Source: Thermodesulfobacteriota bacterium (GTDB taxonomy: Bacteria > Desulfobacterota > Desulfobulbia > Desulfobulbales > JBFMBH01). From it: DNA of 46,607 bases. The notes under the pieces were generated by a model. That model was given only the letters and a program-made list of their open reading frames with translations. It searched no databases and had not been told where the DNA came from. Numbering within the stretch: the first letter of the stretch is position 1; every line of letters begins with the position of its first letter. This document shows, in pieces, positions 1 to 39,346 of this stretch. Location: the NCBI GenBank assembly GCA_040755095.1, contig JBFMBH010000002.1:1-46607 (forward strand), written 5' to 3'. A program made the position numbers and the translations under genes.

Positions 1-1367
1 GTGCTTTCCCCGATCCCCTGGGTGGTGAGGGCGGCGTCGTAGATCTCCCAGAGCCGGCAGCCTTCGACCAGGGTGTCGTGGGCGTTGTTCCAGAACTCGA
101 CCCCGTTGCCGTAGCGCAGCTCGCCGTCGCCCCCCATCTGATCCCCGCCGCCGATGAAGGAGAAGTCGCAGTTGCGCACCACGATGTGGTGGGTGTCGCC
201 GCCGCCGATGCCGTGCGCCCCGCCGTAGCGCAGGTCCAGGTCCTGGTAGACGATATGGTGCTGGCCGGTCTCGTCGATGATATGCCGGCTCAAGGCACAC
301 TCCAGGTCGCCGTAATGACGGGCCGGGTTCTCGGCGGAATAGACCTTCAGCTCCCAGTTGTCCTCGTCGTACCAGAACTCCCCCTGGCTGGACAGCTCGC
401 TCTCCTGCCAGCGCTTCAGGCCACTGGACCGGCTCTGGCCGACAATGATGTTGCCGACATCGGCAAAGAGCAGATCCTTGGCGGAGAATTCCTTGACGCT
501 CAGGGAGTCCACAAAAAACGTCGCGCCAGCCGGCAGGGCGCCGCCCAGATAGAAGGTGATCCGGGCATCGGCGGTGGTCCGCTCCACCCGGTAGAGCACC
601 CGGTAGGTCTGCCAGTCGCCGGTGATGGTGGGCGAAAAGGCCGAATTGGCGTAGACGATGCGCTCCCAGGGCGGGGCATCCGGCATGAGCACAATGCTGT
701 GGACCGTAAAATCGGCGCTGCTCCTGGCCCGGAAGGAGAGCTCATAGGAGGTCCCGGCCTGGACAGCGAACCTCTCCGTAGTGAAAAGCTGGATGTCGGT
801 GGCCGCGGTGCCGCTGGCCGCACAGGCTATGGAGTAGCCGGCCGGCGCGCTGGCGAAGACATCTGTATCCCGGCCCGCGCTGCCGCTCGCCCCGCCCTCG
901 GCGGCAAAATGGGTATGCCAGCCCTCGGCGCTGGTCTCGAAGCTCGGATTGGCCAGATGCTCCCCGTCCAGGAGGGGCGGCCTGGTGGTGGCCCAGATAG
1001 CGCCGCCCTCGTGGCGCCAATGGCCTTCCTGGCTCTTGGCCATGGAGCCGAGAAAGAGCGGTTTGTCACCGGTGCCATAGGCGCCGTAGGTGATGGCACC
1101 CGCCTCGCTGCCGCTTTGGGGGGCAAGCCACTCCCGCCAGACCCCGCCCCGGGCGAAAAGCACGGTGTCCCCGGGCGAAAGCGGGGTGGTATTCACCTTG
1201 CCGATGGTCTGCCAGGCGGACTGGGGAGAGGTGCCCGCGGCCGCGTCGGAGCCGTGGAAGGCGTCCACATAGTAGGTGGCGGCCCAGGCACCGGTCCGGA
1301 GGTCAGGACCGGCGACGAGGATGACGAGGACAAAGAGAACAAGAGCCCCCTTGCACGGTGATCCCAT
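1..1367 (-). CDS. secreted right-handed beta-helix protein (3' end outside window)
   Basis: The reading frame is open from an ATG at 1367 to the window edge, about 455 codons without a stop. An AAAGGAGG ribosome site sits 5-6 nt before the ATG. The N-terminus has a hydrophobic signal segment (ALVLFVLVILVAG), then the pattern TYYVDAFHGSDAAAG...SAWQTIGKVN...PGDTVLFARGGVWRE typical of secreted parallel beta-helix polysaccharide-active or surface proteins. A middle part (about residues 125-270) resembles a carbohydrate-binding-like beta-sandwich (NPSFE...GWHTHF...SYELSFRARS). The end visible here has beta-helix turns with short repeats such as HHIVYQDLDLRYGG and HHIVVRNCDFSFIGGG. It is probably exported and binds or cleaves a polysaccharide; the enzyme class cannot be told because the C-terminal part is missing. 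Confidence 0.88.
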   Translation of the reverse strand, partial: MGSPCKGALVLFVLVILVAGPDLRTGAWAATYYVDAFHGSDAAAGTSPQSAWQTIGKVNTTPLSPGDTVLFARGGVWREWLAPQSGSEAGAITYGAYGTGDKPLFLGSMAKSQEGHWRHEGGAIWATTRPPLLDGEHLANPSFETSAEGWHTHFAAEGGASGSAGRDTDVFASAPAGYSIACAASGTAATDIQLFTTERFAVQAGTSYELSFRARSSADFTVHSIVLMPDAPPWERIVYANSAFSPTITGDWQTYRVLYRVERTTADARITFYLGGALPAGATFFVDSLSVKEFSAKDLLFADVGNIIVGQSRSSGLKRWQESELSSQGEFWYDEDNWELKVYSAENPARHYGDLECALSRHIIDETGQHHIVYQDLDLRYGGAHGIGGGDTHHIVVRNCDFSFIGGGDQMGGDGELRYGNGVEFWNNAHDTLVEGCRLWEIYDAALTTQGIGES

Positions 1368-1455: not shown

Positions 1456-3171
1456 CTACCGGATGTAGCCTTCCCGGCGCAGGTAGAGGAGCACCTCCTC
1501 GGCCGCCTCGTCGGGGGTGTTCTCCGAGGTGTCGATGCGGACCTCCGGGCTTTCCGGCAGCTCGTAGGGGTCGTCGATGCCGGTCAGGCCGCGGACAATG
1601 CCGGCCCGGGCCTTGGCGTACAGGCCTTTGCGGTCCCGGCCTTCGCAGACCGCCAGCGGCGTCGCCACATGCACCTCGATGTAGCCGCCGTACTGGCTGA
1701 TGAGCCGGCGGTTCTCCCGCCGGGATTCCCGGTAGGGGGCGATGGGCGCGCACAGGGCGATGCCGCCGTTCTTGGTGATCTCGGAGGCCACAAAGCCGAT
1801 GCGGGTGATGTTGAGGTTGCGGTCCCGGCGGGAGAAGCCCAGCTCCGAGGACAGGTTCTTGCGCACCACGTCGCCGTCCAGGAGGGTCACCGGCCGCTCG
1901 CCCAGCTCCATGAACCGGGTCAGGAGCACCCGGGCGATGGTGGACTTGCCGGAGCCGGAAAGCCCGGTCATGAAAACCGTGAAGCCCTGGCGGGAGCGGG
2001 GGGGATAGGCCCGGCGCAGGACCTCCACCACCGCCGGCGGCGAGAACCAGGCCGGGATATCGAGCCCATGGGTGAGACGCCGCCGCAGCTCGCCGGCGGC
2101 CAGGGCCTCCAGGGGGTGGTCGTCCTCGCTGATCTCGTCCACCGGCACGTACTGGGCCCGGGCCGGCAGGAAGACCATGGGTCTGAGCGGCACCGGTTGG
2201 ACGCCGATCTCCTCCTGGAATTGGCGGATATGGGCGAGGGCTGCCCCCCGGGGGTAGTGCCGGGGCTGGTCCGAGACCGCGTGGGGGTCGGCATGGTCAG
2301 CCGCCACCATGAAGTGGCTGCAGCCGTAGTTCTTGCGGATGAGGGCGTGCCACAGCGCCTCCCGGGGCCCGGCCCTGCGCCTGGCCAGGGGAATGAGCCC
2401 CAGGAGCACCGAGCCCGGCGGGTAGGTGCCGACAATGGCGTCGTAGCAGCGCACCCGGGCGTAGTGGTCGATATCGCCCGGGTGGGTGAGGCCGACGATG
2501 GGCTGCAAGAAGATGTGGGCGTTGTGCTCCCGGGCAGCGACCAGGGTGATCTCCTTGTGGGCGTTGTGCAAGGGCTTGGTGGTGTCGAAGGCCAGAACCC
2601 GGCGCCAGCCCAGCTTCTGGAAATAGGCCCGGGTCTCGGCCGGGGTCAGGCGCAGGAGCTTGTAATCGTAGTGGATGGGCAGCTGCAGGCCGGCCACCGC
2701 GCCGGCCACGTACCAGTCGCCGTGCTCGGTAAGAAGGGCGGCCACCCCGGGGTGGGTCATGTCGTCGGTGCCGAAGACCAGCCGCGCCTCGGCCCGTTTG
2801 TCCGGCTGCCAGACCTCGGTGACGGTCAGCACCGCCAGCATGAAGCCTTCCAGATCCCGGAGGGCGACCCGGGTGCCCGGGGCCAGCTCACGGGCGGTGG
2901 CGGCGCTCACGTCCAGGCAGACCGGCAGCGGCCAGACCAGGCCGTCCGGCAGCCGGCTTTCGGTGAGCACCCGCTGGCAGGTCGCCCGGTCCATGTAGCC
3001 GGTGAGGGGGGAGAAGGCGCCGGTTGCGAGCAGCTCCAGGTCGCACAGCTGCCGCTGGTTGAGATCGATGGAGGGGAAGTCGACCGACTCGGCCTTGAGG
3101 CGGGCCTGTTCCTCGGCATCGACCAGCAGGTTGACCAGCCGGCCGCCGTGGGGCTCGACGAGATGACCCAT
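1456..3171 (-). CDS. sat/cysC: SAT / APS-kinase fusion with degenerate ATP sulfurylase active site
   Basis: The 571-aa protein is an ATP sulfurylase-like domain (about residues 1-385) fused to an adenylylsulfate kinase domain (about 395-571), the same build as the bifunctional enzymes of Geobacter-like bacteria. The kinase half looks intact: P-loop GLSGSGKST (403-411), LLDGDVVRKNL, LNITRIGFVASEI, APIAPYRESR and KGLYAKARAG. The sulfurylase half does not. The QTRNPxHRAH motif reads DTTKPLHNAH (residues 196-205), and the GRDHAGPG motif reads AADHADPH (from 290). The two HxxH histidines (202, 205) remain, but the arginines that hold sulfate in characterised enzymes are gone. I chose the ATG at 3171 over the GTG at 3189 because AGGA lies 8 nt upstream and homologues begin near the LVEPHGG segment. 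The kinase may make PAPS from APS supplied elsewhere. The first domain is either structural or acts on another oxyanion (inference). Confidence 0.9.
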   Translation of the reverse strand: MGHLVEPHGGRLVNLLVDAEEQARLKAESVDFPSIDLNQRQLCDLELLATGAFSPLTGYMDRATCQRVLTESRLPDGLVWPLPVCLDVSAATARELAPGTRVALRDLEGFMLAVLTVTEVWQPDKRAEARLVFGTDDMTHPGVAALLTEHGDWYVAGAVAGLQLPIHYDYKLLRLTPAETRAYFQKLGWRRVLAFDTTKPLHNAHKEITLVAAREHNAHIFLQPIVGLTHPGDIDHYARVRCYDAIVGTYPPGSVLLGLIPLARRRAGPREALWHALIRKNYGCSHFMVAADHADPHAVSDQPRHYPRGAALAHIRQFQEEIGVQPVPLRPMVFLPARAQYVPVDEISEDDHPLEALAAGELRRRLTHGLDIPAWFSPPAVVEVLRRAYPPRSRQGFTVFMTGLSGSGKSTIARVLLTRFMELGERPVTLLDGDVVRKNLSSELGFSRRDRNLNITRIGFVASEITKNGGIALCAPIAPYRESRRENRRLISQYGGYIEVHVATPLAVCEGRDRKGLYAKARAGIVRGLTGIDDPYELPESPEVRIDTSENTPDEAAEEVLLYLRREGYIR

Positions 3172-3293
3172 GATGGCGATCCTGAGCACGAAGGGGTGGA
3201 AGAAAAGGAGAGGTCGACGCCCCCCGGGGGGACGCCGACCACAGATCCTATGGTAGTCGGTTCAGGCGGGGCTGTCCACGGCCCCGGCCGCGG

Positions 3294-3719
3294 CTAGGCG
3301 ATCTCCAGCAGCTGGATCTCGAAATTGAGGTGCTTGCCGGCCAGGGGAGGGTTGGCATCCAGGGTTACCTGCTGCTCGCCGACGCTGGTGATCGTGACGA
3401 CAATGATCTCACCGTTCGGGCTGCCCATCTGCAGCTGCATGCCCATCTCCGGTACGATGTCCGGCGGGAACTGGCTCCGGGGCACGGCCATCTCCATCTC
3501 AGGATGGCGAAGGCCGTAGGCCTGTTCCGGGGCCAGCCGCACCGTCCGGCTCTCACCGATCTGCATGCCGGTGACCGCCTGGTCGAACCCGGCAATGACG
3601 TGGCCGCTGCCGATGGTGAACTGCAGGGGCTCCCGCCCCAGGGAGGAATCGAAGACCGTGGCATCATCCAGCCGGCCGGTGTAGTGCACCTTGACCTTGT
3701 CACCTGACTTCGCGTGCAT
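3294..3719 (-). CDS. FKBP-type peptidyl-prolyl isomerase, SlyD-like
   Basis: The 141-aa protein begins at the ATG at 3719, with AAGGAG 7 nt upstream; a longer open frame to 3812 has no comparable site. The N-terminus KSGDKVKVHYTGRLDDATVFDSS and GSGHVIAGFDQAVTGMQIGE are the two halves of an FKBP fold. Between about residues 68 and 120 lies the insert-in-flap segment found in SlyD-type isomerases. The C-terminus (NPPLAGKHLNFEIQLLEI) closes the FKBP sheet. There is no histidine- or cysteine-rich metal-binding tail as in E. coli SlyD. No signal peptide is seen, so it probably acts in the cytoplasm on nascent or stressed proteins. It lies 104 nt upstream of the SAT/APS-kinase gene on the same strand, but nothing ties their functions. 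Confidence 0.93.
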   Translation of the reverse strand: MHAKSGDKVKVHYTGRLDDATVFDSSLGREPLQFTIGSGHVIAGFDQAVTGMQIGESRTVRLAPEQAYGLRHPEMEMAVPRSQFPPDIVPEMGMQLQMGSPNGEIIVVTITSVGEQQVTLDANPPLAGKHLNFEIQLLEIA

Positions 3720-3849
3720 GAAGCATCTCCTTTTGTCTTTGCTGGAACATCCCGAAGGTGTGGCGAAAAACGCGCCGCGTGAGTGGCCGCCTGGTCTGCT
3801 CTGAAGAAACATCGGTCACCAGGGCGGGTTTTCGGGCACCCATCGTGAC

Positions 3850-4239: not shown

Positions 4240-4328
4240 GAATGTCCAACAAGGAATTTCGAAGGGAGAAGGGACCGGCCTTGACGTTCCAGATCAGTCC
4301 TGCCGGTTCCTTCTGCGGTTGGACATTC
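4240..4328 (+). repeat. long nested inverted repeat in the leader of the V-ATPase locus
   Basis: The outer arms GAATGTCCAAC (4240-4250) and GTTGGACATTC (4318-4328) are perfect complements. The inner arms AAGGGACCGGC (4269-4279) and GCCGGTTCCTT (4302-4312) pair at 10 of 11 positions. There is no U-run after it. It could fold in the 5' leader of the operon, or be a copy of a dispersed intergenic element. Confidence 0.65.
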
Positions 4329-4387
4329 CTTGCTCGACATTCGATATTCGCTGTTCTTTCCTCCTGTGCCGGCTCCGGAGATCAATC

Positions 4388-5755
4388 ATGCCCCTGCCGT
4401 CCCGCATGCTCATCCGTACCCGGGTGCTGGCCATCGTCGGCAACCTGCTGACGGTGCGGGCCTCGGGTGTGGGCTACGGCGAGCTGGCCATGGTGGAGAA
4501 CCCGGACGGCGAGCGCTCCCTGGCCCAGGTGGTGGAGCTTGACGCCGAGCGGGTCTCGCTGCAGGTCTTTGCCGGCGGCCGCGGCCTGTCCACCGGCGCC
4601 ACGGTGCGCTTCCTGGGCCATCCCATGGGCGTGACCTACTCCCCCCATATCCTGGGCCGGATCTTCGACGGCGCCGGCCGACCCCGGGACGGCGGTCCGG
4701 AGCTGGCCGGTGAGCCGGTGGTGGCCATCGGCGGCCCCACCATCAATCCCTTGCTGCGGGTGCTGCCGAAGCGGATGATCCACACCCGCATCCCCATGAT
4801 CGATCTTTTCAACTGTCTGGTCGAAGGCCAGAAGATTCCGATCTTTTCCGTGTCCGGCGAGCCCTACAATGCCCTCTTGGCCCGCATTGCGGTGCAGGCC
4901 GACGCCGACGTGGTGGTCTTTGCCGGCCTGGGCCTCATCTTCGATGACTTCCACCATTTCCGCACCGTGTTCCAGGACGCCGGGGTCCTGGGCCGCACCA
5001 TCATGTATGTCAACCTGGCTTCGGACCCGGTGGTGGAGCGGCTCCTGGCCCCGGACCTGGCGTTGAAGGTCGCCGAGCGGCTGGCGGTGGAGGAAGGCCG
5101 GCGGGTGCTGGTCCTCATGACCGACATGACCGCCTATGCCGACGCCATGAAGGAGATCGGCATCGCCATGGAGCGGGTGCCGGCCAACCGGGGCTACCTG
5201 GGAGACCTGTACAGCCAGCTGGCCCAGCGCTACGAGCGGGCCTGCGAGCTGAAAGGGGCCGGCTCGGTGACCATCCTCACCGTCACCACCATGCCGGGCA
5301 ACGATGTCACCCACCCGGTCCCGGACAACACCGGCTACATCACCGAGGGCCAGTTCTACCTGCACGACGGCATCCTCGACCCCTTCGGCTCCCTGTCGCG
5401 CCTCAAGCAGCAGGTGATCGGCAAGACCACCCGGGAGGACCACGGCCAGGTGATGAACACCATGGTCCGCCTCTACGCCGACAGCCAGGAGGCCCAGCGC
5501 AAGGAGGCCATGGCCTTCGAGCTGTCGCCCTACGACCGCCAGGCCCTGCGCTTCGGCAAGCTGTTCGTCCAGCGCTTCATGGCCATCGATCAGGATCTCG
5601 ATCTGGATTCCGCCCTCAACCTGGCCTGGCAGACCATGGCGGAGTGCTTTTCGCCGGAGGAGCTCCTCATGAAGGAATCCCTGGTGGACAAGTACTTCCC
5701 GGCTGAGGGCCGCGAAGGCACAGAGGCCCAGATTAAGCATGACCGGGTGGAGTAG
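4388..5755 (+). CDS. ntpB: V-type ATP synthase/ATPase subunit B
   Basis: The 455-aa protein is the non-catalytic nucleotide-binding-fold subunit of the V1 head, which alternates with subunit A. Diagnostic segments are the N-terminal beta-barrel (VLAIVGNLLTVRASGVGYGE), GRIFDGAGRPRDGGP, IHTRIPMIDLFNCLVEGQK, the LVLMTDMTAYADAMKEI region and PDNTGYITEGQFYL. It has no P-loop, as expected for B. I chose the ATG at 4388, with GGAG 7 nt upstream, because the protein then begins just before the family's usual N-terminal barrel; the frame extends back to 4319 without homology. It is the first gene of the rotated V-ATPase locus. Its last codons (KESLVDKYFPAEGR, then a divergent tail) are echoed at 6776-6841, so this 3' end was probably remodelled by an insertion. 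Confidence 0.97.
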   Translation: MPLPSRMLIRTRVLAIVGNLLTVRASGVGYGELAMVENPDGERSLAQVVELDAERVSLQVFAGGRGLSTGATVRFLGHPMGVTYSPHILGRIFDGAGRPRDGGPELAGEPVVAIGGPTINPLLRVLPKRMIHTRIPMIDLFNCLVEGQKIPIFSVSGEPYNALLARIAVQADADVVVFAGLGLIFDDFHHFRTVFQDAGVLGRTIMYVNLASDPVVERLLAPDLALKVAERLAVEEGRRVLVLMTDMTAYADAMKEIGIAMERVPANRGYLGDLYSQLAQRYERACELKGAGSVTILTVTTMPGNDVTHPVPDNTGYITEGQFYLHDGILDPFGSLSRLKQQVIGKTTREDHGQVMNTMVRLYADSQEAQRKEAMAFELSPYDRQALRFGKLFVQRFMAIDQDLDLDSALNLAWQTMAECFSPEELLMKESLVDKYFPAEGREGTEAQIKHDRVE

Positions 5756-5883
5756 TCTGGCCCGGGGTGGGCAAGAAGGAGAAAATAACTCATGCTGGCG
5801 GGATGGTCCGGTCACGCTCCAACCCAGCCCATCTACAAGAAGTTCAAGAGCATGAGAGACTCTTGAGAAACAACAGCCCCAGA

Positions 5884-5897
5884 GCGGACTTCCGGCG
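5884..5897 (+). repeat. 14-mer shared with position 3958
   Basis: GCGGACTTCCGGCG occurs here and at 3958-3971, in both cases in intergenic DNA next to other repeats and flanking the subunit B gene. It may be part of a dispersed intergenic element. Confidence 0.5.
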
Positions 5898-5928
5898 GTC
5901 ATGCCATTCAATCGGAAGCGCAGATGAA

Positions 5929-6002
5929 GGATGGGTGGAGGCGACCGCCGCAACCCATCAGTCGGCCGGAGCGAGATGGGTTGCGCTGCGCTCCACCCAT
6001 CC
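5929..6002. repeat. palindromic intergenic element (ATGGGTGGAG / CTCCACCCAT type)
   Basis: The left arm starts GGATGGGTGGAG and continues to CGCAACCCATC. The right arm, GATGGGTTGCGCTGCG then CTCCACCCATCC, is its near-complete reverse complement, with a loop of about 15 nt. I know this type of element as a common dispersed intergenic palindrome in many Gram-negative genomes. Its position between ntpB and the toxin cassette fits a recent DNA gain. Confidence 0.75.
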
Positions 6003-6062
6003 TACCCTGCTGGGGGGGGAGAAAAGAAGGCCTGCGGCAAACAGTACAGGAGGCTGACAGAG

Positions 6063-6359
6063 ATGGCACGAATACAGATTGAGGCGGACGCCCAGGGGGC
6101 TGTGCTTGATATGGTCAAGGAGGCCATTGCGGCGGAGATCAAGCGGCTGGAAATCGGTCTGCTCAGAACGGAGCGTCTGCTGGCCGAGAGGGAGAAGAAA
6201 TACGGCATATCCTCCGAGCTCTTCCTGGAACAATATGCGGCGGAGGACCTGGCAGGAGGAGATCAGGAGTACATGGAATGGGCGGGAGAGGTGCAGATCC
6301 TGGCGCGAATCACCGACGACCTGCGACGACTCAAGGCCATCGAATATGTTGCTCACTGA
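6063..6359 (+). CDS. small helical protein, probable partner (antitoxin) of the TumE-like protein
   Basis: The 98-aa protein starts at the ATG at 6063, preceded by AGGAGG about 10 nt away. It is charged and predicted mostly helical (VKEAIAAEIKRLEIGLLRTERLLAEREKKYG), with an acidic middle (EDLAGGDQEYMEWAGE). I do not recognise a DNA-binding domain in it. It overlaps the following TumE-like gene by 14 nt, so the two are almost certainly co-translated. By position it is the likely antitoxin or partner; that is inference from gene order, not from a domain. It sits inside the V-ATPase locus but has no visible link to ATPase function. Confidence 0.75.
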   Translation: MARIQIEADAQGAVLDMVKEAIAAEIKRLEIGLLRTERLLAEREKKYGISSELFLEQYAAEDLAGGDQEYMEWAGEVQILARITDDLRRLKAIEYVAH

Positions 6360-6765
6360 GTACGCGGCCAGGCTGGCGAGGATCGTGGACGATTTCTCCC
6401 GGACGGGTCTCATCGTGGATTCCTCTATCGCCGTTGATAGTCGAGCCCCCAAGATCGGGGTCGTTCGTGGCGCCATAACCTTTGCGGATGAGTCCCGGCT
6501 CTTCCTCACGGAGTACCTCGACCTCAGGTACAGGCCGGAGAAGCTCTCGTATGCCTTCCAGTATCAGGACGGGCAGGGAGCGCTACGCTTCCGCTACGAC
6601 AATGCACGGCATAAGCCGGCACTCTCGTGTCCTGATCACAAGCATCTTGGGGACGGCAGCACAGTGATTGCCAGGCCTCCGGAGCTGGAAACCATTCTCG
6701 TCGAGATCATGGACGACTTCATGGATATCCGCTGCCCAGAGGGCAAACATCCCTGTATCGGATGA
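6346..6765 (+). CDS. TumE-family (DUF6516) toxin-like protein
   Basis: The 139-aa protein has the DUF6516/TumE signature: an N-terminal helix, a strand-rich middle ending in YAFQYQDGQGALRFRYDNA, and the histidine-rich PDHKHLGDG motif. Members of this family are annotated as toxins of toxin-antitoxin modules. I chose the ATG at 6346 because it overlaps the partner gene's stop at 6359, and the frame before it is not protein-like. The pair lies between V-ATPase genes B and D. Just after this gene is a second copy of the end of ntpB, so the cassette seems to have inserted in the 3' end of that gene. Confidence 0.82.
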   Translation: MLLTEYAARLARIVDDFSRTGLIVDSSIAVDSRAPKIGVVRGAITFADESRLFLTEYLDLRYRPEKLSYAFQYQDGQGALRFRYDNARHKPALSCPDHKHLGDGSTVIARPPELETILVEIMDDFMDIRCPEGKHPCIG

Positions 6766-6775
6766 GCTATGAGTA

Positions 6776-6841
6776 GAGGAGTCTCTGGTGGACATATACT
6801 TCCCGGCTGAGGACCGGCTGGCAGCAGGAGGGAAGGGGTGA
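6776..6841 (+). pseudogene. duplicated 3' end of ntpB (insertion scar)
   Basis: The frame ending in TGA at 6839-6841 reads EESLVDIYFPAEDR followed by LAAGGKG. The genuine ntpB end at about 5668-5712 reads KESLVDKYFPAEGR. Eleven of 14 residues match, and the DNA is clearly homologous (CTGGTGGACA..TACTTCCCGGCTGAGG in both). A stop codon at 6770-6772 closes the frame upstream, so it is not expressed as B. Its TGA overlaps the GTG start of subunit D (GTGA), the kind of coupling expected of the original B/D junction. The simplest reading is that this is the ancestral B tail, left behind when about 1 kb entered the gene. Confidence 0.8.
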
Positions 6842-7458
6842 TCGGCCAGGGTGCCAGCAAGACAACCTTGCGGGAAGAGCGGCAACGGCTGGCCCTGTAC
6901 CGCCAGTATCTGCCCTCCCTGGAGCTGAAGCGGCGCCAGTTTCTCTGGGAGCTGAACCGGGCGCGGGCAGCGGAGGCGGAGCTGGCAGCGGCCCTGGCCG
7001 CGTTGCGGCAGCAGGCGTCGGACTGGCTGGCCTGTCTTGGCGGCTGCCGGCAGGACCTCCGCGGTCTGGTGCGGGTGGCCGGGGTGGAGCTGGAGGAGGA
7101 GAGCGTTCTGGGGCTGCGGCTGCCCCGCCTGGCCAGTGTGGAGGTAGCGCGGGCTGACTACCCGTTCCTGGTGCTGCCCCTGTGGGTGGACGCCCTGGCA
7201 GACTATCTGGCCCGGGCGGCGGAGCTGGAGGTGGCCCGGCAGGTGGCCGGCAGGCGCACCAGCCTTCTGGCTGCGGGCCTGCGGCAGATCACCCAGCGGG
7301 TCAACCTCTTCGAGCAGGTGCTGATCCCCAGCGCCCAGGCGGCCATCCGCCGCATCACCATCTTCCTGGGGGATGCGGAGCGCTCGGCGGTGGTGCGGGG
7401 CAAGCAGGCCAAGGCCAAAGCCGGCCGGGGGAGGAGGTCATGGCCATCGTCCCCCTAG
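6838..7458 (+). CDS. ntpD: V-type ATP synthase/ATPase subunit D (central stalk)
   Basis: The 206-aa protein is a long antiparallel coiled coil, as expected for the rotor shaft that links the A3B3 head to the membrane ring. The N-terminus (TTLREERQRLALYRQYLPSLELKRRQFLWEL) and C-terminus (QRVNLFEQVLIPSAQAAIRRI) are the conserved paired helices of the family. The start is a GTG at 6838 after GGAGGGAAGG, overlapping the TGA of the duplicated B tail. It overlaps the subunit I gene by 19 nt. Confidence 0.95.
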   Translation: MIGQGASKTTLREERQRLALYRQYLPSLELKRRQFLWELNRARAAEAELAAALAALRQQASDWLACLGGCRQDLRGLVRVAGVELEEESVLGLRLPRLASVEVARADYPFLVLPLWVDALADYLARAAELEVARQVAGRRTSLLAAGLRQITQRVNLFEQVLIPSAQAAIRRITIFLGDAERSAVVRGKQAKAKAGRGRRSWPSSP

Positions 7459-9239
7459 CCCGGGTCACCCTCTGCGGTCCGTCTGCGGACAAGGAGGCGG
7501 TGCTGGCCGGCCTCCAGGATCTGGGCTGCTGCCATCTGGAAGGGGCGCCCGCCCACGAGCAGGCCGGGGCAGACCGTTTCCTGTCGCCCACCGCCCACCG
7601 CGCCTTCCAGTATCTGGCCCGCTGTCCGAACCGCCGGCGGCAGGTCCTGGACCCGGCCGGCTTCCATCCCCGGACCGTGGAGGCCGAGGCCCTGGCCATC
7701 GAGGAGCGCCTGCGGGTCCTGGACGAGGAGCGGGACCATCTGACCATGCACATCCGGGCCCTGGCGCCCTGGGGTGACTTCGCCTTCGACGACCCCTTCC
7801 TTCTGGGCGAGCTGCGGCTGTGGTTCTATATCGTGCCCCTGTACCGCCTGGCCGAGGTGGCGGCCTTGGACCTCGTCTGGCAGGTGGTGCACCAGGACGG
7901 CCTGGATGCCTATGTGGTGGTGATCGCCGGCGAGGAGCCCCAGGGGCTGCCGGTGCCGCGGGTCCATACCGGCAGCCGCTCTCTGGCCGAGCTGCGGCAG
8001 CGGCTGGAGGAGGTGGAGGCGGAGCAGGAGGATCTCCACTGGCGGCGGGCAGGGCTCACCCGTTGGCTGTCCCTGTTCGGCCAGGTGCTGGCGGCGGCGG
8101 ATGATGCCGCGGCCCTGGCCGAGGCCTTGCGCCTGACCTCGGACCAGGGCGGCCTCTTTGTGCTGGAGGCGTGGAGCCCCGAGGACCGGGTGGGGGCGCT
8201 GGCCGCCTTCTGCCGGCAGCAGGGCATCGTGCTTGTTGCTCGACCGGTGGAGCCCGGGGATCGGCCGCCGACCCTCTTGGCCAACGAGGGCGTCCTGGCC
8301 GGCGGCGAGCTCCTGGTGCGCTTCTACACCACCCCGGCCTACCACCTGTGGGATCCTTCCCGGCTGGTCGCTGCCTCCTTCGTGCTCTTTTTTGCCATGA
8401 TCGTGGCCGATGCCGGCTATGGCCTGGCGCTGGGCCTCCTGTGGCTGGCCGGCCGCCGGCGCTGGGGCTGCCGCCAGCCCCGGCTCTGCCAGCTGGCAGG
8501 GCTCATGATCCTGGCGACAGTCGGCTACGGCACCCTGGTGGGCTCCTACTTCGGCCTGCCGCCGCCGGCGGGTCCGCTGGCCAGCCTCGTCATCCTGGAC
8601 CTGACGGCGCGGCCGGCGATGATGGCGGTCTCCGTTGTCATCGGCGCCGGCCATTTGCTGCTGGGGCAAGCCATCAACCTCGCCCGCGCCCGGACCGCCG
8701 GGGAACGGCTGGCAGCTGGCGGCTGGATCATGATCCTCGCCGGCGGCCTGGCGGCGGCCGGCGGCTGGTGGCAGCCGGCCTGGACCGGGCTGGCTGCCGC
8801 GGGTTGGCCGCTCCTGGCAGCCGGCAGCCTGACGGTCCTGGTGTTCTCGAGCAGCCGGCCTTTCCGGCAGGCCGGCTGGCGGGATCTTCTGGGCCGCCTG
8901 CTGGATGGCGCCCTGGCGCTCACCAACCTCAGCCGGGCCTTCGGCGATGTCTTGAGCTACCTGCGGCTCTTTGCCCTTGGCCTGGCCTCGGCCCAGCTGG
9001 CCATGACCTTCAACGAGCTGGCCGCCAGCGCCAGCCGGGCGCTGCCGGTCCTGGGCAGCCTGGTGGCCGCCGTCATTGCGGTGGCCGGTCACAGCCTGAA
9101 CGCCGGGCTGGCGGTGATGGGCGGCGTCATCCACGGCCTCAGGCTCAACCTCATCGAGCTCTTCGGCTGGACCCTCACCGATGAGGGACGATCCTTTCAG
9201 GCCTTTTCCCGCAAGGAGGGCAAGCCATGGACTCTGTGA
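7440..9239 (+). CDS. ntpI: V-type ATP synthase/ATPase subunit I (membrane stator a-subunit)
   Basis: The 599-aa protein has a soluble N-terminal half (about residues 1-310, with coiled-coil segments) and a membrane C-terminal half with several hydrophobic spans. These include FVLFFAMIVADAGYGLALGLL, where MIVADAGYG is a family signature. The SYLRLFALGLASAQLA segment carries the conserved arginine that faces the rotor ring carboxylate, and VIHGLRLNLIELFGW is the last conserved block. I took the ATG at 7440 after GGAGGAGG, overlapping the end of subunit D by 19 nt; the open frame further upstream is a shadow of D. It forms the ion half-channels with subunit K and overlaps that gene by 13 nt. Confidence 0.96.
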   Translation: MAIVPLARVTLCGPSADKEAVLAGLQDLGCCHLEGAPAHEQAGADRFLSPTAHRAFQYLARCPNRRRQVLDPAGFHPRTVEAEALAIEERLRVLDEERDHLTMHIRALAPWGDFAFDDPFLLGELRLWFYIVPLYRLAEVAALDLVWQVVHQDGLDAYVVVIAGEEPQGLPVPRVHTGSRSLAELRQRLEEVEAEQEDLHWRRAGLTRWLSLFGQVLAAADDAAALAEALRLTSDQGGLFVLEAWSPEDRVGALAAFCRQQGIVLVARPVEPGDRPPTLLANEGVLAGGELLVRFYTTPAYHLWDPSRLVAASFVLFFAMIVADAGYGLALGLLWLAGRRRWGCRQPRLCQLAGLMILATVGYGTLVGSYFGLPPPAGPLASLVILDLTARPAMMAVSVVIGAGHLLLGQAINLARARTAGERLAAGGWIMILAGGLAAAGGWWQPAWTGLAAAGWPLLAAGSLTVLVFSSSRPFRQAGWRDLLGRLLDGALALTNLSRAFGDVLSYLRLFALGLASAQLAMTFNELAASASRALPVLGSLVAAVIAVAGHSLNAGLAVMGGVIHGLRLNLIELFGWTLTDEGRSFQAFSRKEGKPWTL

Positions 9240-9688
9240 TCCTCACCCTGGGCTGGCTGGGCATCTACGCCCCCATGGCCCTGGCCGCCATGGGCAGCAT
9301 CATCGGCTGTGCCCGGGCCGGGCAGGCGGCCTGTGGTGCCCTGCTCGACACCGAGGCCAACCACGGCCGCTACATCGGCGTCTCGGCCATGCCGTCCTCC
9401 CAGACCATCTACGGCATCGTGGTCATGCTGTCCTTGAACCGGCCGGTGAGCCTGGCGTCGGCGCCCGGCCTGTTCGCAGTGGGGGGGCTGGCTGGCCTTG
9501 CCCTCCTGGTCTCGGCGGTGCTGCAGGGCGACGCTTGCGCCTCCGCCATCCAGGTATCCAAGCACAAGCCGGAGATCTTCGGCATCTCGGTAGCGCCGGC
9601 CGCCATCGTCGAGGGCTTTGCGGTCTTTGTCTTCATCTTCGCCCTGGTGATCGGTGGCGGCATCCCAGCCGGGTCGACCGCACCATGA
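9227..9688 (+). CDS. ntpK: V-type ATP synthase/ATPase subunit K (rotor proteolipid) with Na+-site residues
   Basis: The 153-aa protein has four hydrophobic spans, two fused hairpins as in 16-kDa V-type proteolipids. The second hairpin carries the ion-binding glutamate (IVEGFAV, E129). The equivalent place in the first hairpin has MPSSQTIYG, with no carboxylate. Aligned by eye to Enterococcus hirae NtpK, the Na+ ligands T64, Q65, Q110 and E139 correspond to S58, Q59, Q100 and E129 here. That set favours Na+ binding over simple H+ coupling. This is inference from motif conservation. It overlaps ntpI by 13 nt and ends 10 nt before subunit E. Confidence 0.95.
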   Translation: MDSVILTLGWLGIYAPMALAAMGSIIGCARAGQAACGALLDTEANHGRYIGVSAMPSSQTIYGIVVMLSLNRPVSLASAPGLFAVGGLAGLALLVSAVLQGDACASAIQVSKHKPEIFGISVAPAAIVEGFAVFVFIFALVIGGGIPAGSTAP

Positions 9689-9698
9689 GGAGACGATC

Positions 9699-10370
9699 GT
9701 GAGCGAGCGCAAGCTGGCGTCCGGGGTTCAGGCCCTCATCGACCGTTTGCGGGAGGAGGGCATCCGGTCCGGTCAGGAGGAGGCGGAGCGGCTCCTGGAG
9801 GAGGCGCGAGCCGAGGCAACGAGGCTCTTGCACCAGGCCCGGCAGGAGGCGGAGGCCATCCGCCGCCAGGCCAGGACCGAGGCGGAGCGCACCCGGGCCG
9901 CCGCCAGCGAGGCCTTGAGCAAGGCGGCCCGGGATACGGTCATCGATCTCAAGGAGCGGCTGGGCCGGGAGTTCGGCCGCCGGGTGGGCGAAATGGTGTC
10001 GGCCGCCCTGGCCGACGAGGGCCTGCTGGAGAAGCTCATTCTGGAGATCGGCCGCCAGGCGGCGCCACTGGCCGCCCAGGGTCCGGTGACCATTCTTCTG
10101 CCGGAAGACGTGGTCGGGCTCGACGAGCTGCGCCGGGCCCCGGAGCGGGTCAGGGAGGGCGCGCTGGGCTCCCTGACCCTGGCCGTCAGCCAAGGAACGC
10201 TACGGGAGGGGGTGCACATCGCCACCCGGCCCGGCAGCGAGGCCGGCATCCTGGTGCGGCTGGAAGACGAGGACCTGGTCATCGATTTGTCGGCCAGCGC
10301 CATCACCGACCTTCTGCTCGTCCACCTGCAGCCCCGCTTCCGGGCGCTGCTCGAGGGCAGCATCGGCTGA
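9699..10370 (+). CDS. ntpE: V-type ATP synthase/ATPase subunit E (peripheral stalk)
   Basis: The 223-aa protein has a long charged helix at the N-terminus (SGQEEAERLLEEARAEATRL and on to about residue 85). A globular C-terminal domain ending in DLSASAITDLLLVHLQPRFRALL follows. This is the build of the E subunit, which with its partner helix forms the peripheral stalk. I chose the GTG at 9699, with GGAG 8 nt upstream, over the longer frame from 9654, which lies within subunit K. No separate G/H subunit gene is visible, as in other minimal bacterial V-ATPases of the Bacteroidetes/spirochaete type. Confidence 0.92.
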   Translation: MSERKLASGVQALIDRLREEGIRSGQEEAERLLEEARAEATRLLHQARQEAEAIRRQARTEAERTRAAASEALSKAARDTVIDLKERLGREFGRRVGEMVSAALADEGLLEKLILEIGRQAAPLAAQGPVTILLPEDVVGLDELRRAPERVREGALGSLTLAVSQGTLREGVHIATRPGSEAGILVRLEDEDLVIDLSASAITDLLLVHLQPRFRALLEGSIG

Positions 10371-17694: not shown

Positions 17695-19539
17695 GTGACC
17701 CCCATGACCTCCGCCCTTTACAACGAAGACAAGATCAAGACCTTAAGCTCCCTGGAGCACATCCGCCTGCGGCCGGGCATGTACATCGGCCGCCTGGGGG
17801 ACGGCTCCCACCCGGACGACGGCATCTACATTCTGCTCAAAGAGATTGTCGACAACGCCGTCGATGAGTTCATCATGGGCTCAGGCCGCCGCATCGACGT
17901 TCAGATTCATGATCATGGCCTGGTGCGGGTGCGGGACTACGGCCGGGGCATCCCGTTGGGCAAGCTCGTGGACTGCGTGTCGGTGATCAACACCGGCGCC
18001 AAGTACAACACCGACGTGTTCCAGTTCTCGGTGGGCCTGAACGGCGTCGGCGCCAAGGCGGTGAACGCCCTGTCGGAGCAGTTTGCGGTCACCTCCTGCC
18101 GCCAGGGCCGTTTTGCCCGGGCGGTCTTCCGCCAGGGGGTGCTGCAGGAGGAGACGGAGGGCGACACCAGCGACAAGGACGGCACCCTCATCGAGTTTCG
18201 GCCCGACCCGGGGGTGTTCCCCGAGTTTGCCTTTGATCTCGATCTGGTGCGCCGCCGCTTCTGGCGCTACGCCTATCTCAATGCCGGCCTGCGCCTTTAC
18301 CTGGGCAAGGAGCTCTTCCATTCCAAAGATGGCCTCCTGGATCTTTTGCGGGCGGAGGTGGCGGATACCGGTCTCTATGAGCCCATCCACCACCGGGACA
18401 AGCTTTTTGAATTTGCCTTCTCCCACACCGAGGGCTACGGAGAGATCTATTTCTCCTTTGTGAACGGTACCTATACCAACGAGGGCGGCACCCACCTGTC
18501 CGCCTTCCGGGAAGGGATCCTCAAAGGGGTCAACGAGGTCCTGAACAAGAAATACCTGGGTGAGGACGTCCGGGACGGCATGGTCGGCGCGGTGGCGGTG
18601 AAGATCACCGACCCGGTCTTCGAATCCCAGACCAAGAACAAGCTGGCCAACCCGGAGCTGCGCACCTGGGTGGTGAACGCGGTGCGGGAGGCGGTGAGCC
18701 AGCACCTCTATCGCCACCCCGAGACGGCTGGCGTTTTGAAGGAGAAGATCGAGCACTCGGAGAAGGTGCGGAAAGAAGTACGGCAGGTGCGCACCGAGGC
18801 CCGGGCCCGGGCCAGGAAGGCGGCCATCAAGATTCCGCAGCTCAGAGACTGCAAGCACCACCCGGAGCACGGCAAGCCTTCCCCGCCAGGCCGGGAGAAC
18901 ATGATCTTCCTCACCGAGGGCCAGAGCGCCTCCGGCTCCATCGTCAGCGCCCGGGACCCCCTGACCCAGGCGGTCTTCTCCCTCAAGGGCAAGCCGTTGA
19001 ACGTCCAGGGCAAGCCCTTGACCCTGCTCTACCGCAATGAAGAGCTCTACAACATCATGCGGGCCTTGAACATCGAGGAATCGGTAAGCCGGCTGCGCTA
19101 CGACCGGGTGATCCTGGCCACCGACGCCGATGTGGACGGCCTGCATATCCGGAACCTCCTGCTCACCTTCTTTCTGCACTTCTTCGAGGAGCTGGTGAAA
19201 AAAGGGCATCTCTATATCCTGGAGACGCCGATCTTCCGGGTGCGAAACCGGGACCAGAGCCGGTACTGCTACTCGGAGGCCGAGAAGCGCCAGAGCGAAA
19301 AGGAGCTGGGCCGCGGCAAGACCGGCCGCGCCGGGGTGGAGATCACCCGCTTCAAGGGCCTGGGCGAGATCTCGCCCCAGGAGTTTCGCCGCTTCATCGG
19401 CCCGGAGATGCGCCTCCGACAGGTGGACATCGACCGGATGGCCGAGGTGCCGGAGCTGCTCACCTTCTACATGGGCAAGAACACGCCGGAGCGGCGGCAG
19501 TACATCATGGAGCACCTGGTAGCTGAGGTGAATGCATGA
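17695..19539 (+). CDS. parE: DNA topoisomerase IV subunit B (ParE/GyrB type)
   Basis: The 614-aa protein is the ATPase and TOPRIM subunit of a type IIA topoisomerase. Visible are the GHKL ATPase motifs (LLKEIVDNAVDEFI, VRDYGRGIP, GLNGVGAKAVNAL), the switch-lysine region (QTKNKLANPE) and the TOPRIM segments EGQSASGSIV and ATDADVDGLHIRNLLLTF. The C-terminus ends with FKGLGEISPQEF. The length and sequence style fit the shorter ParE form seen in Bacteroidetes and some other phyla. A GTG at 17695 and an ATG at 17704 are both possible starts, and neither has a clear ribosome site. It overlaps the next gene by 4 nt (ATGA), so the two subunits are co-translated. Confidence 0.93.
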   Translation: MTPMTSALYNEDKIKTLSSLEHIRLRPGMYIGRLGDGSHPDDGIYILLKEIVDNAVDEFIMGSGRRIDVQIHDHGLVRVRDYGRGIPLGKLVDCVSVINTGAKYNTDVFQFSVGLNGVGAKAVNALSEQFAVTSCRQGRFARAVFRQGVLQEETEGDTSDKDGTLIEFRPDPGVFPEFAFDLDLVRRRFWRYAYLNAGLRLYLGKELFHSKDGLLDLLRAEVADTGLYEPIHHRDKLFEFAFSHTEGYGEIYFSFVNGTYTNEGGTHLSAFREGILKGVNEVLNKKYLGEDVRDGMVGAVAVKITDPVFESQTKNKLANPELRTWVVNAVREAVSQHLYRHPETAGVLKEKIEHSEKVRKEVRQVRTEARARARKAAIKIPQLRDCKHHPEHGKPSPPGRENMIFLTEGQSASGSIVSARDPLTQAVFSLKGKPLNVQGKPLTLLYRNEELYNIMRALNIEESVSRLRYDRVILATDADVDGLHIRNLLLTFFLHFFEELVKKGHLYILETPIFRVRNRDQSRYCYSEAEKRQSEKELGRGKTGRAGVEITRFKGLGEISPQEFRRFIGPEMRLRQVDIDRMAEVPELLTFYMGKNTPERRQYIMEHLVAEVNA

Positions 19540-21521
19540 CCGCCGAGGCCAGCCCCCAGGCCAGCCGGCTCAAGAGGCTTTTTGAAAAAAACTTCGTCGA
19601 GTACTCCTCCTACGTCATCCGGGACCGGGCGATCCCTGAGCTGGAGGACGGCCTGAAGCCGGTGCAGCGCCGGCTCCTCCACACCCTGTACAAGATGGAT
19701 GACGGCCGCTTCCACAAGGTGGCCGGGGTGGTGGGGGAGACCATGAAGCTCCATCCCCACGGCGACGCCTCCATCTACGCCGCCCTGGTCAACCTGGCCA
19801 ACAAGGGCTTTCTGATCGACCGCCAGGGCAACTTCGGCAACATCTACACCGGAGACGCTGCCTCGGCGGCCCGCTACATCGAGTGCCGGCTCTCGCCCCT
19901 GGCCCGGGAGACCCTCTTCAACCCGGATCTCACCGAATTCGTCCCCTCCTACGACGGCCGCACCGAGGAGCCGGTGGCCCTGCCGGCCCGGCTGCCGCTG
20001 CTGCTCATGCAAGGGGCCGAAGGCATCGCCGTCGGCATGGCGACCAGGATCCTGCCCCACAACTTTGGCGAGCTGCTCCACGCCCAGAAGGCGATTTTGC
20101 GCGGCGAGCCCTTCGTCCTCTATCCGGACTTCCCCACCGGCGGCCTGGTGGACGTGGCCGGCTACGACGCCGGCAACGGCCGGGTACGCTGCCGGGCGCG
20201 GCTGGAGAAAAAGGACGAGCGTACGATCGTCATCCGGGAGATTCCGTACGGCACCACCACGGAATCCCTCATCGACAGCGTCGAGAAGGCGGCCCGGGCC
20301 GGCAAGATCAAGATCGGCGCCATCAACGACTACACCGCCGAGACGGTGGAGATCGAGATCCGCCTCGCCCGGGGCGTCTCCGCCCAGGACACCATCCCGG
20401 CCCTTTTTGCCTTTACCGACTGCGAGCTGGCCATCGTTCCCAGCCTGACGGTGATCCGGGACAACACCCCGGTCATCCTGACGGTTACGGAGGTGCTGCG
20501 CCACAACACAAAAAAACTGGTACAAGATCTGGAGCGGGAGCTGACCATCGAGCGGGGCCGGCTTCTGGACCAGCTGCAGGCCCAGACCCTGGAGCAGATC
20601 TTCATCGAGGAGCGGCTCTACAAGGGGATCGAGGAGAGCGGCAGCCTCAAGGCGGCCCTGGCGGCCATTGCCGAGGGCATCGCCCCTTTCCGGGAGCGGC
20701 TGGTGCGGGAGGCGACCTTCGAGGATTTGGAGCGGCTCCTGGAGATCCGCATCCGCCGCATCAGCCGCTACGACATCGACAAGCGGCGGCGGGAGATCAA
20801 AGCCACCCGGGACGAGATCGCCCTGGTGGAAAAAAAGCTCACCGACCTCGTCGGCGTCGCCCTGACCTACCTGGACCATCTTCTGGACAAGTACGCCGCC
20901 GCCCATCCCCGCCGCAGCGAGATCGCCAGCTTCGAGGAGGTGGTGGCCCGGGAGGTGGCGCCAGCCAACCTGACGGTGGGCTACGACCGGGAGCACGGCC
21001 TCCTGGGCCACGGCATCAAGGCAGCCAGCGGCGAGGGCTTTCCCTGCTCGGAGTATGACCGGGTGCTCCTCTTTTTCCGGGACGGCCGCTACAAGGTGAT
21101 CGCAGCGCCGGAGAAGCTCTACGTCGGTCCGGACCTCCTGTGGGCCGGCCGGCTGGAGGAGGGCCTCATCTTCAACCTCCTCTACCGCCACGGCACCGAC
21201 AACCTCACCTACGCCAAGAGGTTCGGCACCCCCAAGTTCATCCTGGACAAGGAGTACCGGATGCTGCCGGAGGTCGCCGGCTCCACGGTCGAATTCTTCA
21301 AGGCCGGGCCGGACTGCCGCCTGCGCCTGACCCTGGTGGCCCTGCGCCGCGGCAAGGGCAACCAGATCCTCATGGACTGCGCCGAGCTGCCGCTCCGGGC
21401 CCCGGCCGCCCTGGGAAAGAGGGTCTCCACCCGGGTGGTGCGACGGATCGTCGAACAGGAGGACGAGGCGCCCCCCCCAGCGCCAGCGCCCACCCTCTTC
21501 GAGCCCCCCGCCGGGGATTGA
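19536..21521 (+). CDS. parC: DNA topoisomerase IV subunit A (ParC/GyrA type)
   Basis: The 661-aa protein is the breakage-reunion subunit. It has the winged-helix segment with HPHGDASIY and the catalytic tyrosine in AARYIECRL. A coiled coil lies at about residues 370-470 (FEDLERLLEIRIRRISRYDI, KRRREIKATRDEI). It is shorter than GyrA at the C-terminus and lacks an obvious set of six GyrA-box blades, so it is more like ParC. The quinolone-contact positions read A and A where E. coli GyrA has S83 and D87. The start ATG at 19536 overlaps the stop of parE. Confidence 0.93.
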   Translation: MTAEASPQASRLKRLFEKNFVEYSSYVIRDRAIPELEDGLKPVQRRLLHTLYKMDDGRFHKVAGVVGETMKLHPHGDASIYAALVNLANKGFLIDRQGNFGNIYTGDAASAARYIECRLSPLARETLFNPDLTEFVPSYDGRTEEPVALPARLPLLLMQGAEGIAVGMATRILPHNFGELLHAQKAILRGEPFVLYPDFPTGGLVDVAGYDAGNGRVRCRARLEKKDERTIVIREIPYGTTTESLIDSVEKAARAGKIKIGAINDYTAETVEIEIRLARGVSAQDTIPALFAFTDCELAIVPSLTVIRDNTPVILTVTEVLRHNTKKLVQDLERELTIERGRLLDQLQAQTLEQIFIEERLYKGIEESGSLKAALAAIAEGIAPFRERLVREATFEDLERLLEIRIRRISRYDIDKRRREIKATRDEIALVEKKLTDLVGVALTYLDHLLDKYAAAHPRRSEIASFEEVVAREVAPANLTVGYDREHGLLGHGIKAASGEGFPCSEYDRVLLFFRDGRYKVIAAPEKLYVGPDLLWAGRLEEGLIFNLLYRHGTDNLTYAKRFGTPKFILDKEYRMLPEVAGSTVEFFKAGPDCRLRLTLVALRRGKGNQILMDCAELPLRAPAALGKRVSTRVVRRIVEQEDEAPPPAPAPTLFEPPAGD

Positions 21522-38401: not shown

Positions 38402-39346
38402 TCAGTCCAGGATGAAGAAGGAGATCATGCCCAGGGTGGCCAGGAGGAAGGCCGAGCCCAGGAACTCGGTCAGCCGGAAGAGCCGCATCTTGGCCAGCCC
38501 GGTCTCGATCCAGACGATGCCAATACCGGCCAGGCCGAGCTTGGCGAAGAGGATGCCGAAGGCTGCGGGCAGCGCCAGGAGGTGGCCTTCGGTGGCGATG
38601 CCCCAGGGCAGGAAAGCGGCGATCCCCATGGCAACAAAGAGGAAGAGCTTCATCATCCCGGCCCATTCGATGAGGGCGAGGTGGCGGCCCGAATATTCCA
38701 GGATCATCGCCTCGTGCACCATGGTCAGCTCCAGATGGGTGGCCGGGTTGTCCACCGGGATCCGGCCTGTCTCGGCCAGAGCGATCATCACGAAGGCGAG
38801 CAGGGCAAAGGCCAGGGAAGGCCGGACCACCGTCTCGCCACTGGTGATGACCATGACGATCTGGGCCAGGGAGGTGGAGCGGTTGGTGAGGGAGACGGTG
38901 AAGATCGCCATCAGCATGGCCGGCTCGGCCAGGGAGGCGATCATCATCTCCCGGCTGGCGCCCATGCCTCCGAAGGCGGTGCCGATATCCATGCCGGCCA
39001 GGGCGGTGAAGAAACGGGCGATGGCAAAGAGTGCCACGATGACGATGATGTCCGCCGCCGGCGCCATGGGCAGGTCCACGGACAGGATCGGGATGATGCC
39101 GGCGCTCAGGACCGCGGTGCCGAACAGGAGGTACGGGGTGAAGCGGAAGATCCAGGAGGCGTTCTCCGCCAGCACCACGTCCTTGCCGATGAGCTTGGCG
39201 AGGTCCCGGTAGGGCTGGAAGAGGCTGGCCGAGGTGCGGCCCTGGGACCAGCACTTGAGCATGCGCACCCAGCCGACGAAGGCCGGCGCCAGCCCGACGA
39301 CGGCGGCAATCTGCAGCAGCTCGACCACAAAGGCAGAGGGCTTCAT
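38402..39346 (-). CDS. hyfC: Ehr/Hyf membrane subunit (HyfC/NuoH-like)
   Basis: The 314-aa protein has eight or so hydrophobic spans. Family marks are QPYRDLAKLIGKD in the first loop, GGMGASREMMIASLAEPAML and ETGRIPVDNPATHLELTMVHEAMILEYSG. The last is the acidic loop that links the cluster end of the complex to the ion channel in NuoH. The ATG at 39346 overlaps the hyfB-like stop by 4 nt. Confidence 0.95.
   Translation of the reverse strand: MKPSAFVVELLQIAAVVGLAPAFVGWVRMLKCWSQGRTSASLFQPYRDLAKLIGKDVVLAENASWIFRFTPYLLFGTAVLSAGIIPILSVDLPMAPAADIIVIVALFAIARFFTALAGMDIGTAFGGMGASREMMIASLAEPAMLMAIFTVSLTNRSTSLAQIVMVITSGETVVRPSLAFALLAFVMIALAETGRIPVDNPATHLELTMVHEAMILEYSGRHLALIEWAGMMKLFLFVAMGIAAFLPWGIATEGHLLALPAAFGILFAKLGLAGIGIVWIETGLAKMRLFRLTEFLGSAFLLATLGMISFFILD

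Follow-up and report, generated by a model that had tools for sequence, protein, structure and literature searches.

Fusions of an ATP-sulfurylase (SAT) region to a C-terminal adenosine 5'-phosphosulfate (APS) kinase domain are described in several forms. Canonical bifunctional SAT/APS kinase (NF004040; PDB 2gks from Aquifex aeolicus) carries the sulfurylase motifs QTRN and GRDHAG, while the fungal ATP sulfurylase with an allosteric kinase-like domain (PDB 1i2d) has an intact sulfurylase and an altered kinase P-loop (GYMNSGKDA). In the two-domain hexameric APS kinase of Thiobacillus denitrificans (PDB 3cr8) the sulfurylase motifs are lost and the kinase is retained; the title of its report states that ATP sulfurylase activity is absent (Gay, Segel and Fisher 2009), and its SAT-like region has been tied to hexamer stability in work as cited in PMC13213808. 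Entamoeba histolytica also joins a nonfunctional ATP-sulfurylase-like region to an active APS kinase (PDB 23vk, 23vl) and has a separate ATP sulfurylase (PMC13213808). Removal of the ATP-sulfurylase-like domain, or mutation of its contacts with the kinase, lowered kcat by a factor of 20 to 130; in the point mutants kcat/Km hardly moved, and the authors caution that aggregation clouds the deletion result (PMC13213808). Here we describe a gene with this domain order at positions 1456–3171, minus strand, of a 46,607-nucleotide stretch of a Thermodesulfobacteriota genome (contig JBFMBH010000002.1, the whole stretch being called the window). Its product is very likely a monofunctional APS kinase fed by a separate Sat and supplying 3'-phosphoadenosine 5'-phosphosulfate (PAPS) for sulfation, in which a catalytically dead SAT-like region is selectively maintained.

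Active-site residues of the fusion protein

The gene starts with an ATG at 3171, stops at 1458–1456 and encodes 571 amino acids. The plus-strand frame over 1456–3171 is an open shadow frame; the GC content per codon position of the minus-strand gene (0.72/0.46/0.93) is as expected of a real gene in GC-rich DNA. The NCBIfam profile NF004040 (PRK05537), named 'bifunctional SAT/APS kinase', matches the whole protein with 825.8 bits, above its cut-off of 669 bits, and an AlphaFold2 (AF2) model (mean pLDDT 91.3) agrees along its length with two-domain structures from P. chrysogenum, A. aeolicus and T. denitrificans. Fold, length and domain order are those of 2gks. The best full-length sequence match in the PDB is the fungal 1i2d, of the same architecture, and the best kinase-domain match among solved structures is 3cr8, which is also matched in full-length fold. 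The features of the gene, all on the minus strand, are:

1456..3171 (-), degenerate SAT-like/APS kinase fusion gene, 571 amino acids; ATG at 3171, NF004040 match
2002..3171 (-), ATP-sulfurylase-like region (SAT-I, -II, -III), fold retained, catalysis very probably lost; profile and solved-structure matches, AF2 model
2575..2586 (-), QXRN (RNP) loop position, DTTK; Gln, Arg and Asn lost, Thr retained; sequence, residue roles from PMC3779200
2557..2568 (-), HxxH motif, HNAH, retained; sequence
2473..2493 (-), GxxKxxD mobile loop, GLTHPGD; Lys to His, Asp retained; sequence, PMC3779200
2287..2304 (-), GRDHAG loop position, AADHAD; Arg lost, last Gly to Asp, ribose-binding His retained; sequence, PMC3779200
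2083..2100 (-), SGTxxR pyrophosphate-site position, AAGELR; SGT lost, Arg retained; sequence, PMC3779200
1459..1992 (-), APS kinase domain, intact; TIGR00455, 186.8 bits
1939..1965 (-), kinase P-loop, GLSGSGKST; sequence
1870..1878 (-), kinase DGD motif, counterpart of human APSK D87-G-D89; sequence, PMC11697783

The active-site loops of ATP sulfurylase are described as strictly conserved: the sulfate of APS is held by the QXRN Gln and Arg together with the backbone of the GRD-loop Ala, the alpha-phosphate by the QXRN Thr and Asn, and the ribose by the GRD-loop His; the GxxKxxD Asp bonds to the Arg of QXRN, and the SGTxxR Arg and HxxH act at the pyrophosphate site (PMC3779200). In human PAPSS1, docking puts R421 and R522, both arginines, at the sulfate (PMC11697783). 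An earlier note on this DNA had read the QXRN and GRD positions as DTTK and AADHAD with the HxxH histidines kept, and these readings are exact. Both the sulfate-contacting Arg of QXRN and the Arg of the GRD loop are gone, together with the Gln and Asn of QXRN, the Lys of GxxKxxD and the SGT of SGTxxR, while the QXRN Thr, HxxH (HNAH at 2557–2568), the ribose His, the GxxKxxD Asp and the SGTxxR Arg are retained. Judged by sequence, the pocket has lost its sulfate side and kept most of its adenosine side. With the sulfate-holding side chains missing, and the phosphosulfate and pyrophosphate sites incomplete, the SAT-like region would be unable to join sulfate to AMP. The kinase half is intact in sequence, as the note had also read it, with its P-loop, a TIGR00455 score above the cut-off of 138.7 bits, and the DGD motif, whose human counterpart is needed for APSK activity (PMC11697783).

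The protein thus resembles 3cr8 in having a SAT-like region and a C-terminal APS kinase of the same fold in one chain, with the sulfurylase catalytic residues gone and the kinase motifs retained. Among fusions of this architecture with lost motifs, 3cr8 and E. histolytica 23vk are the closest to it that have been studied experimentally, and both are reported to lack sulfurylase activity. The window genome also encodes a separate canonical Sat (C47; motifs LQLRNPMHRSH and GRDHAG), which is the second, normal sat gene that the earlier note had suggested looking for, and aprA (C112). The window protein and 3cr8 differ in the residues lost, those of 3cr8 (QARQ, HRAQ, GGEHQP) including HxxH, which the window protein keeps. 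The fungal enzyme is a mirror image: its sulfurylase is intact and its kinase P-loop lost, and the reverse is seen here. The database name implies a bifunctional PAPS synthase in which both halves still work. The NF004040 score of 826 bits and the completeness of the predicted fold speak for this, but the protein lacks both arginines and further active-site residues found in the canonical enzymes, its genome has the separate Sat, and the related 3cr8 is, by the title of its report, without sulfurylase activity, so we regard this as very unlikely.

Relatives and genome associations

Relatives were sampled from named genomes, from the same order (Desulfobulbales) and from the class, in which 79 of 193 genomes encode the fusion; none of the fusions from these 79 genomes retains both motifs. 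The sampled genomes of the order have contigs in common with named Desulfobulbaceae and Desulfurivibrionaceae. As independent relatives carry the same class of motif changes, a sequencing error or local decay at the two motifs, the former of which the earlier note had named as a possible refutation, is ruled out. With the motif columns left out of the tree, the both-arginine state requires 2 changes, compared with a mean of 14 after shuffling, and a fork with a support of 100 holds 61 Desulfobacterota-type rows. The window protein lies inside this clade, grouped with L063, L064, L004 and L034 in a basal subclade of five rows (support 88), whereas 3cr8, on a long branch, and two further groups branch just outside it. 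The changed fusions therefore cluster, as the note had anticipated, without the conserved gene neighbours that it had also envisaged for such a clade. In 3cr8, L045, L056, L078 and L110, lineages adjoining the 61-row clade, HxxH has become HxxQ, and it seems from these alignments that decay took several routes, with different lineages losing different catalytic residues. An origin of the Entamoeba enzyme inside the degenerate clade was considered and is unsupported, 23vk standing on a long, unresolved branch of the kinase-domain tree; earlier studies likewise left the placement of the Entamoeba fusion unresolved (PMC6801973). A separate observation concerns locus L109 (G190:C187), where another degenerate fusion lineage (FQTSKxIHRLH) is present as two divergent copies that stand face to face at 2013–3807 (+) and 4582–6303 (-), with a group II intron reverse transcriptase open reading frame nearby; that genome has a third fusion.

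The sampled canonical fusions are mostly the sole sulfurylase of their genome, in contrast to the situation in the window genome. Among 40 named fusion genomes, some of them incomplete metagenome-assembled genomes, 15 have a fusion with both arginines and 25 a degenerate one. A second sulfurylase was found in 20 of the 25 degenerate genomes vs 2 of the 15 others (Fisher p 6e-5), and aprA in 23/25 vs 2/15 (Fisher p 8e-7). The aprA-positive genomes of the both-arginine group are its two boundary cases, L043 and L056 (2/2, against 0/13 for the fully canonical fusions). Both have a second sulfurylase besides aprA, and the L056 fusion is already without the second His of HxxH. Lying at the border of the degenerate groups, these two may represent an intermediate stage in which a separate Sat is present and the arginines are not yet lost. 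On these genomic and sequence data, the predicted loss of sulfurylase function is the mark of an old, widespread fusion family, found almost only in bacteria with a separate, apparently working sulfurylase.

The fusion largely replaces the stand-alone APS kinase in the class: a second APS kinase occurs in at most 8 of the 79 fusion genomes, and a stand-alone one in 63 of the 114 others. PF13469 sulfotransferases were found in 94 of the 142 class genomes with an APS kinase vs 5 of the 51 without, in 59 of the 79 fusion genomes, and as two genes in the window genome. A search for Sulfotransfer_4 gave no match in the window genome, and none in any control genome either.

Selection on the SAT-like region and its possible role

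Column entropies were compared between 64 degenerate members and the canonical fusions. The columns of the QXRN Arg, the QXRN Asn and the GRD Arg reach 2.3–2.4 bits in the degenerate members (2.3–3.2 bits when the SGT Thr is added), against 0 in the canonical fusions. Tree lengths relative to the kinase are also raised, being 2.26 for SAT-II and 3.76 for SAT-III in the degenerate fusions and 0.89 and 1.08 in the canonical ones. Median dN/dS of close pairs is nevertheless low (SAT-I 0.09, SAT-II 0.04, SAT-III 0.075, kinase 0.023, from 16 pairs, of which one is canonical and one repeats another), which bears out the claim of the earlier note that the change is not random decay. The sequences thus point to a constraint on sulfate chemistry that is gone and a constraint on the SAT-like region as a whole that persists.

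The earlier note had left open whether the first domain is inactive and structural or handles a different oxyanion or nucleotide. Of these, the inactive or structural domain is favoured, and a new substrate finds no support in the mixed contact columns. Use of another oxyanion, or the joining of AMP to another acceptor, could be argued from the retained HxxH and from residues that have become frequent in the crown clade (His190, Tyr194, Cys197 and Phe291). It is the positions contacting the oxyanion that vary, however; His190, Tyr194 and Cys197 are absent from the window protein itself, and the residues lost differ between lineages. With mixed residues at the contact columns and other residues lost in neighbouring lineages, the pattern looks like drift after the loss of catalysis and not like a new fixed site, and we consider such an activity extremely improbable.

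A different question is raised by the conservation of the adenosine and alpha-phosphate side in the 64 degenerate members, where Thr191 (0.35 bits), HxxH (0.45 and 0.20) and the ribose His287 (0.20) vary little and Asp289-Pro290 is invariant (64/64). Together with the dN/dS of SAT-II, this could mean that the region binds an adenine nucleotide (APS, AMP, ADP or PAPS), either as an allosteric sensor or to receive APS for the kinase. Selection would then act on the adenosine/alpha-phosphate half, with the sulfate/pyrophosphate half erased, and the enzyme might sense or receive the APS made by Sat and so gate PAPS synthesis. The retained residues stand out little, however, since roughly half to two thirds of the columns that are invariant in canonical fusions are less conserved than they are; fold stability could account for them; and one degenerate subclade has Asn in place of the first His of HxxH. 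Both nucleotide binding and the gating that might follow from it are accordingly viewed as unlikely.

The favoured reading is a monofunctional APS kinase. From the sequence and genome data, that is, the lost motifs, the clustering, the kinase motifs, the second sat, the co-occurrences and the purifying selection, we infer the following scheme. The N-terminal region would keep the ATP-sulfurylase fold without joining sulfate to AMP, APS would come from the cell's other sulfurylase, the canonical Sat, the C-terminal domain would phosphorylate APS with ATP to PAPS, and the PAPS would most likely go to sulfotransferases. Because of the T. denitrificans and E. histolytica reports, the SAT-like region may be retained for the stability of the oligomer, for faster kinase turnover through contacts between neighbouring protomers, or for both.

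Several observations weigh against this scheme. Some ligand binding may survive, given that the clade conserves HxxH, the QXRN Thr and the ribose His. The genome associations trace back to a small number of independent changes on the tree, and their p-values overstate independence. No PF13469 match was found in 20 of the 79 fusion genomes, and a Pfam tally of 120 neighbouring open reading frames (ORFs) at 27 loci gave no recurrent sulfation partner near the fusion. In the window the genes beside it, which encode an FKBP isomerase and a carbohydrate-binding protein, have no link with sulfation.

Enzymes of this kind are already known from T. denitrificans and Entamoeba. To our knowledge, T. denitrificans has provided the one bacterial example of a fusion with a lost sulfurylase. 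It is here widened to a large group, which parallels Entamoeba with its separate ATP sulfurylase and nonfunctional fusion. No paper describing the degenerate group turned up in the literature searched, whose coverage leaves out most subscription journals and is thus no proof of novelty; what is probably new is how far the group extends in Desulfobacterota, its association with Sat/AprA metabolism and its probable mis-annotation as bifunctional. NF004040 names the protein 'bifunctional', yet its first half is very probably dead, and a pathway reconstruction of a sulfate reducer in which fusions of this sort are counted as Sat would be wrong. Canonical fusions are usually the only sulfurylase and go without aprA, degenerate ones go with a separate Sat and aprA, and the comparison offers a clear example of catalysis lost from a fused domain whose product comes from another enzyme, with selection on the domain persisting.

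Gene neighbourhoods

A conserved operon was rejected, as a sulfation cluster occurs in only one of the loci scanned. This is the close relative G050, where the fusion lies among sulfotransferases, a sulfotransferase/inositol-phosphatase-like ORF, a polysaccharide deacetylase and glycosyltransferases. The ORF in question (L119:5740-7080, minus strand, contig 31), beside the degenerate fusion, encodes 447 amino acids with Sulfotransfer_4 and Inositol_P domains, and may join a sulfotransferase to a phosphatase that clears its by-product, 3'-phosphoadenosine 5'-phosphate (PAP).

In the window, an ORF at 3-1367 (-) runs off the start of the stretch and has a CBM_4_9 carbohydrate-binding match and, by eye, a possible signal peptide. 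Further along, a run of ORFs at 4319-9702 (+) resembles V/A-type ATPase subunits (B, D, I), also judged by eye. Gyrase B-like and topoisomerase IV/gyrase A-like genes lie side by side at 17695-21518 (+), and a proton-antiporter subunit of the NuoL/Mrp type is encoded at 39346-41391 (-).
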